Source: Lyngbya sp. HA4199-MV5
GTDB lineage: Bacteria > Cyanobacteriota > Cyanobacteriia > Leptolyngbyales > Leptolyngbyaceae
Assembly: GCA_019359375.1 (NCBI GenBank)
Contig: JAHHHL010000018.1
Span: forward strand, 62,001 to 126,000
Direction: 5' to 3'
Length of the DNA: 64,000 nucleotides
Numbering within the stretch: position 1 is the first letter of the stretch; each line of letters begins with the position of its first letter. The notes beneath the pieces are model-generated. The model was given only the letters and a program-made list of their open reading frames with translations. It ran no database searches and was not told where the DNA came from. The position numbers and the translations under genes are program-made. Below are positions 4,125-35,975 of this stretch, one piece after another.

Positions 4125-5780
4125 TCAAGAGTCAGGCAACTGATTGAATGGGCGATCGTAAGCGTGACTCTGGTGCCAAGCCTGCAAAGCCAGTTGATGT
4201 ACTGTTTTCCAGGGAAGCTGATGCTCTCTGGCGATGCGCGCGCAGTCTTCATATTCTGGCTGCACGTTGGTTGGCTGGGATTGGATTCGATCGAGCCATG
4301 CCACCTTCACTTGCACCGTGCCATACGCCGTCTGCACCGACTGTATCTCACGCTGTAAGAGGCTCCGTTCCTGCATCGATCGCCGAATACCCAGAGTGGT
4401 CGTTTCCCGAAACAGCACCGCTTCGCACGCTGCTACAGCCTCTGGATGGCACACCACCGTCAGCAAAAATCCTGGGCGTGATTTCTTCATACCGATCGCC
4501 TGCGTAAACACGTCCAGCGCCCCTACCGCGAAGAGCGCCTCATACACATAGCCGATCGCCTGAGGATTGAGGTCGTCGATTTGGGTTTCCAGGAGGGCGA
4601 TCGGTTGGAGGGAGTAGGGAGTAGGGAGTAGGGAGTAGGGAGTAGGAGAGTTTTGAGTTGTTTCTGTCCCTATGTCTCCACGTCTCTGTGTCTCCGTGTC
4701 CCCTCCTGCCTCCCCTGCTCCCCTTGCTTCCCCTGCCCTCTGCCCTCTGCCTTCTACCCTCTGCGCTGCTTCCCCTGCTTCCCTTGCCTCCCTTGCTTCC
4801 CCTACCTTCTGCCCTCTGCCCTCTGCCTCCTGCCCTCTATCCAGTTCCCCAACCCACAGCCGCAAAATATTCGGCAGCGACAGGTTCATCGACCCAGCCC
4901 CTAAGCCTACGCGGAGTAGGGTCATGGGTGGTGGTGCGCCAAAATGCGTGGCTAAGGTCGTTGCGATCGCGGCTCCTGTGGGAGTCACCATTTCGCGATC
5001 GATCCCGTTGCTGTAGATCGGAATCTGGCGTAGCTCAAACAGCTTCAGCACCGCAGGCGCAGGAATGGGCAGACGACCATGAGCGGCTCGCACGGTGCCA
5101 CCGCCTACAGGTAAGGGAGAACAGTAGAGGCGATCAATACCCAGCCAATCCAACCCCAAGCAGGTGCCTACGATATCAACGATCGCATCCGTTGCTCCTA
5201 CTTCATGAAAGTGAACCTCTTCAGGCGGCACCCCATGAATGGCACCTTCTGCTTCTGCTAATTTGCGGAAGACTGCCAAACTCCAGGCTTCAGCGCGTGC
5301 TGGCAATCCTGCCGCGAGAATCAACTGCTCTACTTCAGGAAGGTGGCGTACTAGCTCATGATGCGTATGGTCGATCGTGGCAGCAGTCGAATGATGGTGA
5401 TGGCTATGGCTATGACTATGGCTATGGCTGGATGAATGCGATGATGTCTTGCTCGTTTCAGTCATCGCAACCGCTTCTGTAGCAGAATGGGAATGGTGAT
5501 GACTGACGTGAGGCTCTGTCTGCGGATGGGCGATCGCGTCTGTTTCATCGCGCACACTTGCATTCACAGCTTTCTCTAAAAGTAAATCCACATGCACTTT
5601 TGTCGCCTGCTGACCATTACGCAACACCCGCTCTGCCCATAATTTGTACTCATTCTCAATCCCAAGCTGGCTGAGCGTGTCAAGCAAATATTCCAGCGGC
5701 ACACCTGCATCCACGAGTGCTCCCAGGCACATATCGCCTGCAATGCCAGTCGGACAGTCTAAGTAGGCAATTTTAGTCAT
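4125..5780 (-). CDS. larC: LarC-type nickel insertion protein with repeat-derived insert
   Basis: LarC inserts nickel into the pyridinium-dithiocarboxylate mononucleotide cofactor used by LarA-type enzymes. The N-terminus ([17 protein letters not shown]), [25 protein letters not shown] and [11 protein letters not shown] are family signatures. The 551 residues exceed the usual roughly 400-430 for two visible reasons. A His-rich loop at about residues 85-142 has alternating Ser-His runs and could hold metal. A low-complexity Gly/Glu/Arg-rich insert at about 311-394 is encoded by tandem heptamers. The frame is open throughout. No larA, larB or larE is visible nearby, so the client enzyme is unknown. 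Confidence 0.92.
4602..4850. repeat. Short tandem repeats inside the larC reading frame
   Basis: At least five GGAGTAG heptamers (about 4612-4645) are followed by polypyrimidine runs of CCTCTGC, CCCCTGC and CTTCCCC type up to about 4850. The tract separates the conserved [11 protein letters not shown] block from the conserved [13 protein letters not shown] block of LarC. It is read through without a stop. Elsewhere in the window these repeats are intergenic. Confidence 0.9.
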
Positions 5781-11520: not shown

Positions 11521-13815
11521 GTGATGCTTCAGCCAGGGTTCGCCATGCCAGCCAAACTCCGCATCCTCATCGTTGACGATGAGCCAGCCGATGCTGAGTT
11601 AATTACATTAGCGTTAGCAGCGACACAGATGGAGGTGGTGTGCGAAGTGACAGACACCCTCGCCCACTGCCAGCAGTTGTTGCAGACCCAGACCTGGGAT
11701 GTGGTGCTGTCAGATTATCGACTGAACGGTTTTACGGGCAACCAAGTCTTGAGCCTGCTACAGCAGTCAGAACAGCAGATTCCCTTTATTTTGATTACAG
11801 GTAGCTTGGGCGAAGAAGCCGCTGTAGACTGCATCAAAGCAGGTATGACAGACTATGTGCTGAAAGATCGCCTGTTTCGTCTGCCGACCGTGCTTGAGCG
11901 ATCGCTCCACGAATTTGAGCTGCGTCGTCAACAGCAAGCCGCCATGCTCCAGATTCACCAGCAGGCGCAGCGAGAAGCCATCATCAATCGCATTGTGCAG
12001 GCGATGCGCGAAACCCTGGTTTTAGATGAGGTGCTGCAAACAACCGTTGATCTGGTGCGAGATGCTCTCCACCCTAGCTGCTGCCTCATCATGCGCCCAA
12101 GTGCCAGTAGCGATCGCGATTTGCTTGTTCGCAATGTCAGCGGGAAAAACCCGTTCTGGGAGGGGTTGCTCAATCATGCCTGTGCGGTTTTTCCCTATTA
12201 CGAAATGCCGTTGAGACAGGGCAACATGGTGATCGTGGATGCAGTGGCTCAAGAACCGTATGCGGCAGTGCAGGCACTGGCGGCACGCGATGGAGTTTGT
12301 GCGTTTCTGATCGTACCCTTGATCTATCAGCAAGAGTTTTTGGGCGGGCTTTCGCTCTATCAAGAGGAGCACGATCGCACCTGGACAACGGATGAAATTG
12401 CGATGGCTAAGGCGATCGCCGATCAGTGCGCGATCGCCATCCAGCAGTCACAACTGTTTGATCAGGTGCAACAGCAAGCGCAGAGAGAACATCTGCTGAA
12501 CCAAATTGCCCGCATTATTAATTCCAGCCTCGACCCTGCCTACATTTTGCAAGAAATCACTCGCTTGACAGGCATCAGCTTTACGGTCGATCGCGCCTTC
12601 ATTTTTGAGATTCGAGCTGACCAGATTCATATTGTTGAAGAGTGGCGGGCAACGGATGCCTTGCCATCAATGCTCAACACCACCTTCCCCCTGTCAGATT
12701 GGTTAGACCTACTCGACGCACAAGCCGACTTTTATCTCAAGCGGTTCTTTCATACGCCAGATTACGGCGCGCTCGCAACGAGTGAGCCATCACCAACCAG
12801 GTTGACTCACCACCAAACCTATCAAATCAAGTCAGTTGTGAATGTACCGATTTTTATTCGAGAGCAACTCTTTGGGGGCATTTGCCTGAACACTACCGCC
12901 ACTCAACGACACTTCACAGACGGCGAAATTCATTTACTCCAGCAAATTGGCGACCAGACCGCGATCGCGCTTTACAACGCCCAAAGCTACGAACGCCTGG
13001 AGCAGCTCGTTCGGGAACGCACTCAGGAACTGGAAGACGAAAAGCGCCTTTCCGAAGCAGCCAATAGTGCCAAGAGCGATTTTCTAACCAACATGAGCCA
13101 CGAACTACGCACTCCGCTGACAGGCATTTTGGGCTTTTCTAGCCTTCTCCTCAAGCAAATCTTTGGACCGCTCACCCCAAAACAGCAGCAATACGTTGAG
13201 AATATTTCGTCGTGTGGCAGCCATCTTCTCTCACTTATCAACGATCTGCTGGACTTATCCAAAATCGAAGCCGGACGTGACGATCTCATCCTGGAAGCCG
13301 TGGATGTGGAAGAACTCTGCATCGCCTGCCTTTCTTTTGTTCGCGAACAGGCAGACCTCAAAGGCTTGCACCTGGTGTTGTCGATCGCTCCCGATATCAC
13401 AACTTGCACTGCCGATAGCCGTCGCCTTAAACAAATTTTGGTTAACCTGCTTTCCAATGCCGTTAAATTCACCGAAGCAGGCACCGTAACCTTGCGCGTT
13501 GATCAAGCAGCTCAGACGCGGCATCAGGGCACCAAAAACACTCCCACTAATTATCCGCGCGCCTCTTTGATCCAATTTCATGTTTCCGACACAGGCATTG
13601 GCATTGCCCAGGAGGATCTACCCCTGCTGTTTCAGCCCTTCCAGCAGCTAGACAGCGGGCTAGACAAGAAGTACCAGGGCACCGGGCTAGGGTTAGCACT
13701 TGCCCGCAAGCTTGCTCAAATACACGGTGGCGACCTCACAGTTACGTCTGAGCCTGGTTTTGGTAGCTGTTTTAGTCTGAGCTTGCCAGCGGAAGCGGGC
13801 GTTTTGGTGCGGTGA
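11521..13815 (+). CDS. Receiver-GAF-GAF hybrid histidine kinase
   Basis: The product has about 764 residues. An N-terminal receiver (about 13-135) has phospho-acceptor Asp65 in LSDYRLNG. Two GAF domains (about 165-312 and 335-495) and a short coiled coil follow. HisKA carries His527 in NMSHELRTPLTGIL. HATPase_c has NLLSNAVKF, DTGIGI and GTGLGLALA. Neither GAF shows an evident bilin-binding Cys in the usual context, so light sensing is not supported. It lies 74 bp after the Rcp1-like receiver, on the same strand as both upstream signalling genes. The frame opens at GTG 11521; ATG 11524 or ATG 11545 are more likely starts. Confidence 0.92.
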   Translation: MMLQPGFAMPAKLRILIVDDEPADAELITLALAATQMEVVCEVTDTLAHCQQLLQTQTWDVVLSDYRLNGFTGNQVLSLLQQSEQQIPFILITGSLGEEAAVDCIKAGMTDYVLKDRLFRLPTVLERSLHEFELRRQQQAAMLQIHQQAQREAIINRIVQAMRETLVLDEVLQTTVDLVRDALHPSCCLIMRPSASSDRDLLVRNVSGKNPFWEGLLNHACAVFPYYEMPLRQGNMVIVDAVAQEPYAAVQALAARDGVCAFLIVPLIYQQEFLGGLSLYQEEHDRTWTTDEIAMAKAIADQCAIAIQQSQLFDQVQQQAQREHLLNQIARIINSSLDPAYILQEITRLTGISFTVDRAFIFEIRADQIHIVEEWRATDALPSMLNTTFPLSDWLDLLDAQADFYLKRFFHTPDYGALATSEPSPTRLTHHQTYQIKSVVNVPIFIREQLFGGICLNTTATQRHFTDGEIHLLQQIGDQTAIALYNAQSYERLEQLVRERTQELEDEKRLSEAANSAKSDFLTNMSHELRTPLTGILGFSSLLLKQIFGPLTPKQQQYVENISSCGSHLLSLINDLLDLSKIEAGRDDLILEAVDVEELCIACLSFVREQADLKGLHLVLSIAPDITTCTADSRRLKQILVNLLSNAVKFTEAGTVTLRVDQAAQTRHQGTKNTPTNYPRASLIQFHVSDTGIGIAQEDLPLLFQPFQQLDSGLDKKYQGTGLGLALARKLAQIHGGDLTVTSEPGFGSCFSLSLPAEAGVLVR

Positions 13816-14045
13816 GGGCAGAGGGCAGAGGGCAGAGGAAGTTGTTGGTTGTTAGAGAAGGCAGGGGGCAGAGGGCAGAGGAAGTTGTTGGTTGTTAGAG
13901 AAGGCAGAGGGCAGAAGGCAGGAGGCAGAAGGGGGAGTGGGGAGCAGAGGAGGTAGGGGAAGAAGGGAAGCAAGGGAGGCAGGGGAAGCAACTCAAAATT
14001 CTTTCATCCTTTATCCTTCATCTTTTATCCTTCATCTTTTATCCT
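13816..14045. repeat. Nested heptamer repeats, overlapping the acyltransferase 3' end
   Basis: GGCAGAG heptamers alternate with the 20-bp block GAAGTTGTTGGTTGTTAGAG. The combined unit occurs twice in tandem, and GGGAGCA/GGGAAGC purine tracts and CCTTTATCCTTCATCTTTTAT units follow. The last part (14025-14045) is translated as the C-terminal tail of the acyltransferase. Confidence 0.88.
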
Positions 14046-15086
14046 TTCCCCTCTCTCTTGCCGCAAGTGATCAATCACACTTTGCAGGCGCGATCGCAGT
14101 GCATCTGCCATACGATAGGTGCGGGTTTGCGTTTGCTTCTCTTCAGGTGTGATGTGCTCCCAGGGACGTTCGAGGGGTTGCACGTGATAGTCGAGGCGCG
14201 ATCGCATTGCCCAAACGCCCATGGAGGGAAAGAGCACAAATACTAGCACCAGTGGCGACAGGGGAAAGAGGGGCATACCCAGCCGCCGCGCTAACCAGGG
14301 CAGGTTCACAGTAAAGGGATGGAGGGACTCGCTGCCGATGCAGATGACCGGTAGAACGGGCACGCGATCGCGCACGCTGAGCCGTAAAAAGCTGGGATCA
14401 AAGGTTGCTAGTTGATAGCGATGCCACCATCCTTTGCTTAAGCCTCTCCACCCTTCAGGCGCGTACAGCAAAATGCGCTTCTGAGGTTCACCTTCATGAA
14501 TCGCTGCCTCAAAGCTTTGCCGCTCTGCCCGCACTCCCCCCAGCATCTCTGCCCACCCGGCTGGCAACCACCACCGCAGCCAGGGATGGTCGAAAAAGAT
14601 GGGATGTGCCAGGGGCTGCACAAACCAATCGCGCCGTTGGGCAAGCAGTAGCCCTAAACACACAAAATCCCACGGAAAGCACATCCCGGCATGGTTCATC
14701 ACAATCATGAGTGGACCATCTTCAGGAAGCTGCTCGACCTGCTGGAGCGTGGCGCGAAAGTATTGATGGGTGATCGGCTCCAGAATTTCTTGTTGAAAGG
14801 CTTTTTGATAGACCGGATCAGGATCATGGTTGGGGGAGATTGTGGGCGATCGTGCCTGCAACAGCGAGCTGAGCCTGAGCCGCAACCAACGCAGCACCAA
14901 CGCCGCATAAAACCCAAACGGCAGCAAAAATAACCCGTATTCTAGCCAGTTCCAGCCATTCTCGTCAGGTTTGTAGTGTTGCCAATGGCGGTTGAACAAG
15001 ATGAGCCAACCTGGTGGATACCAAAGACAAAACCGATCGAACCAGCCAAAGCGATAGGGTTGAGTCAACACACTAGGGCGCGTCAT
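14025..15086 (-). CDS. LPLAT-superfamily acyltransferase (PlsC/DGAT2-like)
   Basis: The product has 353 residues. One or two N-terminal membrane helices (about 46-65) precede an acyltransferase domain. MIVMNHAGMCFPWDF sits in the catalytic position and a Pro-Glu-Gly block lies in LLYAPEGWRGLSKG. The usual HX4D spacing is not met: here His is followed by Asp after seven residues. VLPVICIGSESL and a C-terminal hydrophobic block resemble cyanobacterial proteins annotated as 1-acylglycerol-3-phosphate acyltransferase. The first residues MTRP are encoded by MITE copy 2, and the tail GERIKDEG by short repeats. The GTG at codon 6 may be the ancestral start. Confidence 0.75.
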   Translation of the reverse strand: MTRPSVLTQPYRFGWFDRFCLWYPPGWLILFNRHWQHYKPDENGWNWLEYGLFLLPFGFYAALVLRWLRLRLSSLLQARSPTISPNHDPDPVYQKAFQQEILEPITHQYFRATLQQVEQLPEDGPLMIVMNHAGMCFPWDFVCLGLLLAQRRDWFVQPLAHPIFFDHPWLRWWLPAGWAEMLGGVRAERQSFEAAIHEGEPQKRILLYAPEGWRGLSKGWWHRYQLATFDPSFLRLSVRDRVPVLPVICIGSESLHPFTVNLPWLARRLGMPLFPLSPLVLVFVLFPSMGVWAMRSRLDYHVQPLERPWEHITPEEKQTQTRTYRMADALRSRLQSVIDHLRQERGERIKDEG

Positions 15087-15199
15087 CCATTAGCTCCAAC
15101 TTGCGGTACAACACGATCGCGCCCGCCTCAAAATATCAGGCTAGGGGCTGGAAACCTTGCTGCCAGTAACGTATAGTCACAATTAATGACAGCCCTTAG
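15073..15199 (-). mobile_element. MITE copy 2 between rpaA and the acyltransferase
   Basis: A 119-bp element (15077-15195) is flanked by CTAG (15073-15076) and TTAG (15196-15199), in the opposite orientation to copy 1. The inverted ends are GGCGCGTCATCCATTA and, read inward, GGGCTGTCATTAATTG. It is more diverged than the other copies. It supplies the annotated ATG of the acyltransferase (15084-15086), and its right flank contains the TAA of rpaA. Confidence 0.82.
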
Positions 15200-15954
15200 C
15201 CCGCTAACGATTCGTCACTCTCTGAGCTTTTCCCGGTTTCTGAGTTTTTCCCAGTCGCTGGCAGTTCCAGGCAATACCCGGCACCATAGACCGTTTTAAT
15301 ATAGCGAGGATGGCGGGGATCAGGTTCCAGCTTGGTTCTGAGATGACGGACGTGTACCCGAATCGTTTCGATGTCATCATTGGGATCGTAGCCCCAGACT
15401 TCCTTTAAAATTTCGCTGGGTGAGACGGTCTGTCCATGTCGTTGCAGTAAGCAATGCAGCAGTTCAAACTCCAGGTGAGTCAGCTTCACGGTTTGATCAA
15501 ACCAAATTGCCTCAAACCGTTCTGGCACCAGGGTTAGAGGTCCATAGTTGAGAATCTCGCTATGCTTTGCAGCCTGCGGAATTCGGTCTGTACGACGCAG
15601 CAGTGCCCGTACTCGCGCCAGCATTTCTTCAATTTCAAACGGTTTGGTGAGATAGTCATCAGCTCCCGCGTTAAAGCCTTCCACTTTGTTTTGCGTCTGG
15701 CTGAGAGCCGTGAGCATCAAGACGGGAATATCTGACGTGCGCTCATCGCGGCGTAAACGCTGGCAAACGGTAAAGCCATCAACTTTGGGCAGCATTAAAT
15801 CTAGCATGACCAGATCAGGCTGTAGCTGTAAAGCCATCGCTTGACCTTTCACACCATCAGCGGCCTGGCTCACGTCGTAGCCAGCCATTTCAAGGTTTAC
15901 GGCAACAAGTTCTGAAATTGCAGGGTCATCGTCGATGACGAGTATCCGGGGCAT
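15196..15954 (-). CDS. rpaA: RpaA, circadian output response regulator
   Basis: RpaA is the OmpR-class transcription factor that SasA and CikA control in the cyanobacterial clock; it drives dusk gene expression. The 252 residues hold a receiver with Asp52 in [10 protein letters not shown], Thr82 and Lys104, and a winged helix (about 130-232). Blocks [40 protein letters not shown] and [18 protein letters not shown] are as I know them from RpaA rather than RpaB. The C-terminal Ser/Glu-rich tail is variable. The TAA stop lies in the right flank of MITE copy 2. The strong similarity makes orthology likely. Confidence 0.9.
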
Positions 15955-20057: not shown

Positions 20058-20298
20058 GGAAAGGATGAAGGATAAAGGATGAAAGAGTTTTGAGCTGCTT
20101 CCCCTGCCCCTTCTGCTCCCCTTGCTCCCTCTACTTCCCCTGCCTCCCTTGCACCCCCTGCCTCCCTTGCTTCCCTTCTTCTCCTTCCCCTCTTTGCTCC
20201 CACTCCCCCTTCTGCCCTCTGCCTTCTGCCCTCTGCCTTCTCTAACAACCAACAACTTCCTCTGCCCTCTGCCTTCTCCTAACAACCAACAACTCCTC
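20058..20298. repeat. Polypyrimidine heptamer tract between antiporter and small gene
   Basis: CTTCCCCTGCCTCCCTTGC-type units pass into TCTGCCCTCTGCCTT heptamers and two copies of CTAACAACCAACAACT. The tract fills the gap between the two genes. Confidence 0.85.
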
Positions 20299-20820: not shown

Positions 20821-20950
20821 CTAGGGGCTGTCGTCAATAACGACGACATGTTGCTTGCAGTAAGGGTTCCCGCCCCTAGCTTGTTTGTTGGAACGGGCGC
20901 GACAATGCTGATACCGCAAGCTTTCGAGCTGAATTGATGACGCGCCCTAG
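20821..20950 (+). mobile_element. MITE copy 3 (perfect CTAG duplication)
   Basis: A 122-bp element (20825-20946) lies between CTAG at 20821-20824 and CTAG at 20947-20950, in the same orientation as copy 1. The inner half GTTGCTTGCAGTAAGGGTTC is almost identical to copy 1. The right-hand CTAG contains the TAG stop codon of the convergent MprF-like gene. Confidence 0.87.
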
Positions 20951-35817: not shown

Positions 35818-35975
35818 TTGAGAGTTTTGAGTTTTGAGTTTTGAATTGCCTCTCCTGCCTCCCCTGCTCCTCCTGCTCCCTGTTTCCCCTTCTGCCTCCT
35901 GCCTTCTTTGCCTTCTCTAACAACCAACAACTAACAATCAACAACTTCCTCTGCCCTCTGCCTTCTGCCTCTCTC
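35818..35975. repeat. Short repeats between purN and the deaminase gene
   Basis: GAGTTTTGAGTTTTGAGTTTTGA (three copies of GAGTTTT), TCCTGCCTCCCCTGCTCC pyrimidine units, CTAACAACCAACAACTAACA and CTCTGCCTTCTGCCTC heptamers lie between the two convergent genes. Confidence 0.82.

Follow-up and report, generated by a model that had tools for sequence, protein, structure and literature searches.

Between rpaA and a downstream acyltransferase gene of Lyngbya sp. HA4199-MV5 lies an old copy, numbered 2 here, of a high-copy MITE. Comparison with six empty sites indicates that its insertion duplicated a TA and that an end base of the element completed the new rpaA stop. We consider it likely that the explanation holds as a whole, namely that a MITE mobilized by an IS5-family element entered the rpaA stop, that this stop was rebuilt, that the acyltransferase gene received a new ATG, and that the family is enriched at the 3′ ends of genes. 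The window, by which we mean the entire 64,000-nt stretch of DNA analysed, belongs to a host genome of 6.9 Mb in 95 contigs.

The rpaA-acyltransferase junction

Copy 2 (15074-15198, no strand assigned) was delimited using its terminal repeats, its TA ends, the family consensus and the six empty sites. It is 125 nt long, with TA at 15074-15075, an interior at 15076-15196 and TA at 15197-15198; its right end faces rpaA and its left end the acyltransferase gene. The preliminary description had correctly recognized an element here, but its limits (15073-15199) take in one flanking base too many on each side, the C and the G of the target. Copy 2 is 77.5 percent identical to the consensus of its own genome, 83.7 percent to that of the relative G002 and 69 percent to that of a second relative, G006.

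The rpaA gene (15196-15954, minus strand) codes for a circadian output response regulator of 252 aa with PF00072 and PF00486 domains. Its product is similar over nearly its full length to chain R of PDB entry 9dvt, which is RpaA (residues 2-234 of 252, E 3e-142; next best match 2.7e-47). The C-terminal tail of the protein (15196-15270, minus strand) is six residues longer than in the closest relative, apparently through a short tandem duplication. The acyltransferase gene (14025-15086, minus strand; Pfam PF01553) has 353 codons counted from the ATG within the element. Its ORF is intact and under purifying selection (dN 0.083, dS 0.796, dN/dS 0.104 against G006, the closest relative). Based on the acyltransferase, the nearest named relatives are Stenomitos rutilans, Tildeniella nuda, Leptolyngbya sp. 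FACHB-321 and Stenomitos frigidus.

The acyltransferase search covered 58 genomes including that of the host and gave matches, many of them weak, in 48; 30 loci were kept. The rpaA gene adjoins the acyltransferase gene in 18 of these 30 loci, own genome counted, and in 13 of 80 named loci, in each of these 13 on the same strand, several of the 13 being in the same genomes as in the 58-genome search. The element is absent from all six other genomes of the same genus (L010-L014 and L035). The L012 junction reads GGT-TAG-TGTG-TTG-ACT, as against GGC-TA[element]TA-GTGTG-TTG-ACT in the window. When joined, the window's flanks (GGC-TA-GTGTGTTGACTCAACCC) match the empty sites, that of L012 base for base from the TA onward. 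The insertion point is thus the TA of the stop codon of rpaA itself. Five of the six relatives have, 4 nt behind the rpaA stop (TAG, or in one case TAA), a TTG that corresponds to codon 7 in the window; in L035 the stop is TAG and the gap to the TTG is 9 nt. A GTG precedes this TTG in two of the six; in the other four, no other ATG, GTG or TTG occurs from the preceding in-frame stop up to the conserved region. Most likely, this TTG, only a few bases past the rpaA stop, was the original start of the acyltransferase, and such closeness of stop and start suggests translational coupling of the two ancestral genes.

On the rpaA side, the junction now reads GGC-TA|A. The TAA stop (15196-15198, minus strand) is made of the duplicated TA and the first element base, which is G in the consensus, where it would give TAG, and A in copy 2. 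The preliminary description had assigned this TAA to the flank of the element, whereas it is the element that completes it, at 15198-15196. The SLAG ending of RpaA was kept. On the acyltransferase side the sequence is GGAG-CTAATGG-ATG-ACG-CGC-CC|T-A|GT-GTG-TTG. Of ATG ACG CGC CC-T, the element interior contributes the first 11 bases, and the TA duplication the T of CCT. As had been proposed for checking, we compared the junction with strains that lack the MITE: none of the six empty sites has MTRP or an ATG at this place, which shows the element to be the source of the ATG and of the MTR(P) codons, in agreement with the origin claimed for them earlier. The old rpaA stop remains there as a TAG (15073-15075, minus strand) left by the target duplication, as judged from the sequence and the empty sites. 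Overall, the interpretation in the preliminary description is partly supported; it missed that the target was the rpaA stop, that the element completes the new stop, and that the family recurrently sits in stop codons.

We propose that the MITE inserted into the TA of the rpaA stop in an ancestor of the strain, probably by means of an IS5-family transposase. Since both element ends begin with G behind the duplicated TA, a TAG would have been rebuilt at once on the rpaA side, leaving RpaA intact; the stop is now TAA. The ancestral acyltransferase start, most likely TTG (or GTG) and a few bases behind the rpaA stop, would have been moved to 127 nt from that stop, and the same insertion would have put the element ATG, with GGAG 7 nt upstream, in the acyltransferase frame. 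With its six empty sites, the locus would represent a clean natural case of both sides of a junction being redrawn in one step with neither frame broken. For annotation, it implies that start codons beside such elements need comparison with empty sites.

Candidate starts and transcript features

The element-supplied ATG (15084-15086, minus strand), absent from the six empty sites, is in frame with the acyltransferase, a one-in-three chance, and its product would start with MTRPSV-. A Shine-Dalgarno-like GGAG within the element (15094-15097, minus strand) lies 7 nt before it. The GTG of codon 6 (15069-15071, minus strand), named as the alternative start in the preliminary description, is found in only two of the six relatives; the conserved alternative is the TTG of codon 7 (15068-15066, minus strand), present in all six genus relatives and the likely original start. 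With the 16S anti-Shine-Dalgarno tail, the predicted pairing of the GGAG before the ATG is -5.6 kcal/mol, the best of the window's candidate starts, as against -3.6 kcal/mol at best for the GTG (at 10 nt) and the TTG (at 13 nt), and -2.9 to -5.5 kcal/mol for the TTG of five relatives (L010-L014). Most likely, with a chance that we put slightly above even, the acyltransferase now starts at the element ATG and carries six extra residues. The altered translation start that had been suspected therefore holds as far as the supply of a candidate ATG is concerned; the TTG of codon 7 is retained in the window, so that the older start may still serve.

That the acyltransferase still starts at the old TTG (or GTG), with the element ATG an effect of annotation and the element a 5′ leader only, is a less probable reading that we nonetheless take seriously. 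The TTG is conserved in all six empty sites and persists in the window. In the folded junction RNA, the predicted unpaired probability is 0.03-0.06 for the ATG and 0.05-0.07 for the TTG; the predicted folding would thus bury the element ATG. At four other loci (L084, L096, L099 and L209), an in-frame element ATG lies upstream of a gene that, judged by eye, has an evident start of its own downstream, and PMC3733652 describes REPs at the N-termini of ORFs as often extragenic. Nevertheless, the TTG now lies 127 nt behind the rpaA stop and lacks a well-placed Shine-Dalgarno motif, which the element ATG has, and the old coupling would thereby be lost.

Coupling might have been restored through a short upstream ORF, ATG GAT GAC GCG CCC TAG (MDDAP; 15073-15090, minus strand), if ribosomes ending at its TAG restarted at the TTG, although we regard this as very improbable. 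The frame and the spacing are seen directly: the TAG precedes the TTG by 4 nt, the distance at which the old rpaA stop once stood, and GGAG lies directly upstream of the ORF. However, the GGAG is only 3 nt from the MDDAP ATG, which favours the second ATG, and by comparison with the consensus the ORF owes its ATG to a T-to-G difference, a single point change that can arise by chance.

A simple consensus scan found no intrinsic-terminator-like site between 14900 and 15400, and the predicted fold of the junction RNA is only a little more stable than that of shuffled sequences (z -1.26; equalled or surpassed by 17 of 200 shuffles). A terminator or strong RNA structure at the junction is therefore not supported, nor is an effect on transcription beyond rpaA, including the altered read-through past rpaA that had been anticipated. 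The scan for promoter patterns around the junction yielded three, against 0.5 in shuffles. One sigma-70-like pattern is located within copy 2 (15149-15177, plus strand: TGGAAA, 17 nt, TATAGT; 9/12) and is oriented towards rpaA, antisense; two further weak sigma-70-like patterns lie on the minus strand at 14985-14939.

The MITE family and its likely mobilizer

One element end matches 449 places in the genome with at most two mismatches, against one for a reversed control. The own-genome sample consisted of the window and 88 stretches around end matches listed, with 127 left ends; it was drawn by exact left end among the matches listed and thus leans to young copies. Right ends at a distance of 125-132 nt pair with 119 of the 127, which gives 119 distinct complete copies in the sampled stretches; the other eight, unpaired or paired at 80 or 201-337 nt, were dropped. 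The consensus is 129 nt long including both TA, and its ends are TAGGGCGTGTCATCAATTA and TAATTGATGACAGCCCCTA. The family has the hallmarks of MITEs, being short and non-coding, with inverted terminal repeats, many dispersed copies and a target duplication, which was shown by empty sites at copy 2 only.

All but a few of the 119 copies have TA ends, flanked by Y and R. The base before the left TA is C in 71 copies, T in 47 and A in one, and that after the right TA is G in 113 and A in six. In 44 copies a T stands before the left TA and an element C before the right one; the duplication is accordingly read as TA only, within a Y-TA-R target. By their flanking bases, the targets of 106 copies were CTAG (58), TTAG (41), CTAA (6) and ATAG (1). 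Related families are present in G002 (38 scored matches) and G006 (at least 40), and the left end carries an ATG with GGAG, GAGG or AGGA in 79 of 106 own copies, 21/31 in G002 and 2/32 in G006. The named plasmids gave no match to the MITE consensus. The two halves of the element can each fold into a hairpin, as seen in copies from the own genome (G000), G002 and G006. One pair of the left-half hairpin is T-A in 77 of 106 own copies and C-G in 11/106 own, 23/31 G002 and 15/32 G006 copies; T-G, T-C, C-T or C-A occurs in eight, one and four copies, and 10, seven and 13 were not scorable, respectively. Shared descent could explain this pattern.

The exact-end search covered 39 genomes of the host's family, eight of which gave matches. 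Two of the three end matches of G009 are parts of 840- and 841-bp elements with two overlapping transposase frames, one end being exact in each and the other having three mismatches or one; the third (L313) has no partner end. With NCBIfam NF033580 (IS5 family; cut-off 110), the two transposase pieces in the L314 element reach 129.7 and 161.9 bits. A transposase gene remnant at a contig edge of G003 runs into an exact terminal repeat, and the MITE thus has ends in common with a putative autonomous element (the G009 elements and the G003 end). The end pairs of G013 and G029 span 443 and 437 bp, with worse second ends and no frame of more than 60 aa. As would befit an IS5-family derivative, 105 of 106 copies lie in CTAG, TTAG or CTAA; in PMC5493358, the IS5 target is given as Py-T-A-Pu, mostly CTAG, with CTAG, CTAA or TTAG in 21 of 24 cases. 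These sequence likenesses make an IS5-family element with near-identical ends the likely mobilizer of the MITE.

No full parent IS was found in the 95 contigs of the own genome, only transposase fragments at useful identity. An IS630/Tc1 parent was rejected, with none of 10 DDE_3 matches in the genome bounded by MITE ends in the stretches examined, as were the five own-genome IS5 (PF13340) loci, likewise not bounded by MITE ends; MITE copies occur near two of these five. Near position 1478 of L337, at the end of contig G000:C82, a different end-like sequence, GGGCGTGTTTTAAACCC, starts at the CTAG of a MITE right end and is followed by a weak match to an IS5-type transposase at the contig edge. 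Lastly, L322:3001-3771 is a 771-bp version of the element with an ORF inside that resembles an IS200/IS605 transposase, presumably that of a second element inserted in the MITE.

Stop codons and gene 3′ ends as insertion sites

For the site census, empty sites were rebuilt and genes were called with our own codon-pair gene finder trained on this genome. Copies needed 400-nt flanks and a length of 115-140 nt, and YTAG/CTAR sites with the elements masked served as controls; they replaced an earlier unmasked control (26/105 copies against 113/3209 sites, 14 of 119 copies having been dropped for short flanks). Exactly in a stop codon were 26 of 106 own copies (26/99 non-intragenic), 12/31 in G002 and 2/32 in G006, as against 101/1360, 28/457 and 30/502 non-intragenic control sites, respectively. 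Compared with other intergenic sites, the odds ratio for stops is 4.4 in the own genome (p 6e-8) and 9.7 in G002 (p 8e-7), and G006 shows no stop-codon excess (1.1, p 0.70). Pooling gives 40 copies in stops and 120 at other intergenic places, as compared with 159 and 2160 control sites, respectively, and an odds ratio of 4.5. Intragenic copies number seven in the own genome, none in G002 and two in G006, and more than half of the control sites are intragenic.

With the three genomes pooled and the targets taken separately, stops show no significant difference from the 30 nt that follow them (odds ratio 1.36, p 0.55 for CTAG; 1.26, p 0.67 for other targets) and are in excess over more distant sites (6.5 for CTAG, 4.3 for other targets). 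Sites 1-30 nt behind stops being equally enriched, the excess is one of gene 3′ ends in general; in two of the three genomes, no exact place is commoner than the stop codon. This is most simply read as YTAG targeting together with a safe harbour at the 3′ ends of genes: the enrichment probably arises because the YTAG target coincides with a TAG stop that the insertion restores, and because insertions that do harm elsewhere are purged. This would offer a testable reason for the piling up of small repeats at gene ends, the target being the stop codon and the ends remaking it. That the MITE is a stop-codon element as such, with a YTAG target, G-first ends that rebuild the stop in either orientation (on both strands together where convergent genes have a CTAG in common, as at L196) and an outward Shine-Dalgarno motif plus ATG at one end, appears unlikely. 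If it were one, its insertion between coupled genes could preserve the protein encoded upstream and exchange reinitiation for a new start, and at rpaA the acyltransferase would thereby have lost its coupling to the clock regulator. Still less likely, in our view, is active homing of the transposase to stop codons or gene 3′ ends, with the excess due to targeting and not to purging. The stop-codon excess in two of three genomes is in line with homing, and the median identities to the consensus of stop-codon copies (0.957) and others (0.969) are similar and give no sign of an excess building up with age. However, G006 has no stop-codon excess, and homing to stop codons is not needed, since stops and the next 30 nt are equally enriched.

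The 40 stop-codon copies form 41 junctions, all of which are still stops (39 TAG, two TAA); at L196, one copy in a CTAG common to two convergent genes supplies both stops. A 577-aa ORF of the window (22680-20947, minus strand) has a further copy (20822-20949) exactly at its stop codon, and its TAG consists of the target TA and an element base. A tandem gene follows within 10 nt for only two of the 40, copy 2 and L125, and the L125 gene has another candidate start further downstream. A general role in supplying starts was rejected, as nine of 21 element ends in the three genomes are in frame, no excess over one third; the ends counted are those for which a called gene starts no more than 60 nt away or extends across the site. 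Among them, L086 keeps an ATG built on the target TA, and L124 and L185 are in frame without being open. A post-hoc count of 6/7 for insertions at gene 5′ ends was set aside as evidence. Of the cases examined, replacement of a start by the element ATG is most plausible for copy 2, and L107 is less clear. At L086:1294-1423, where two pieces of the element are arranged in tandem, the likely ATG of the next gene shared bases with the target TA (TA-TG), so that start too survived insertion.

Like Nezha, reportedly a cyanobacterial MITE (Zhou et al. 2008, as cited in PMC10969869 and PMC3733652), the element is a MITE of cyanobacteria. It shares with the GTAG-REPs the stop codons supplied by the repeat and the siting at gene 3′ ends: according to PMC3733652, flanking ORFs often receive their TAG stop from GTAG-REP termini, and REPs in the species shown lie <20 bp from 3′ ends, between tandem or convergent genes. 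The phenomenon thus appears known in kind. GTAG-REPs are described there as 20-40-bp palindromes, often with RAYT (IS200/IS605-type) transposases, whereas the MITE is 125-132 nt long, with inverted terminal repeats, a TA duplication and IS5-type ends; its length and ends rule out membership in a class of GTAG-tagged 20-40-nt palindromes. With the IS5 family (NF033580) it shares near-identical 19-bp ends, those of the 840/841-bp relatives, and the Py-TA-Pu target, mostly CTAG. Unlike IS5, it has no coding capacity, and its duplication is read as TA only, as against the tetranucleotide reported for IS5 itself in PMC5493358. Rickettsia palindromic elements, as described in PMC10969869, are likewise repeats that add codons to host proteins, but they insert in frame inside ORFs, whereas the MITE codons precede the gene. 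Literature searches, which covered passages of open-licence papers, turned up neither the element nor its link to IS5 nor the joint exchange of stop and start at rpaA. Also in the window, low-complexity arrays of CTGCCTTCTGCCCTCTGCC / TTGTTGGTTGTT occur on both strands at 13814-13990, 4705-4836, 20094-20273 and 35854-35957.
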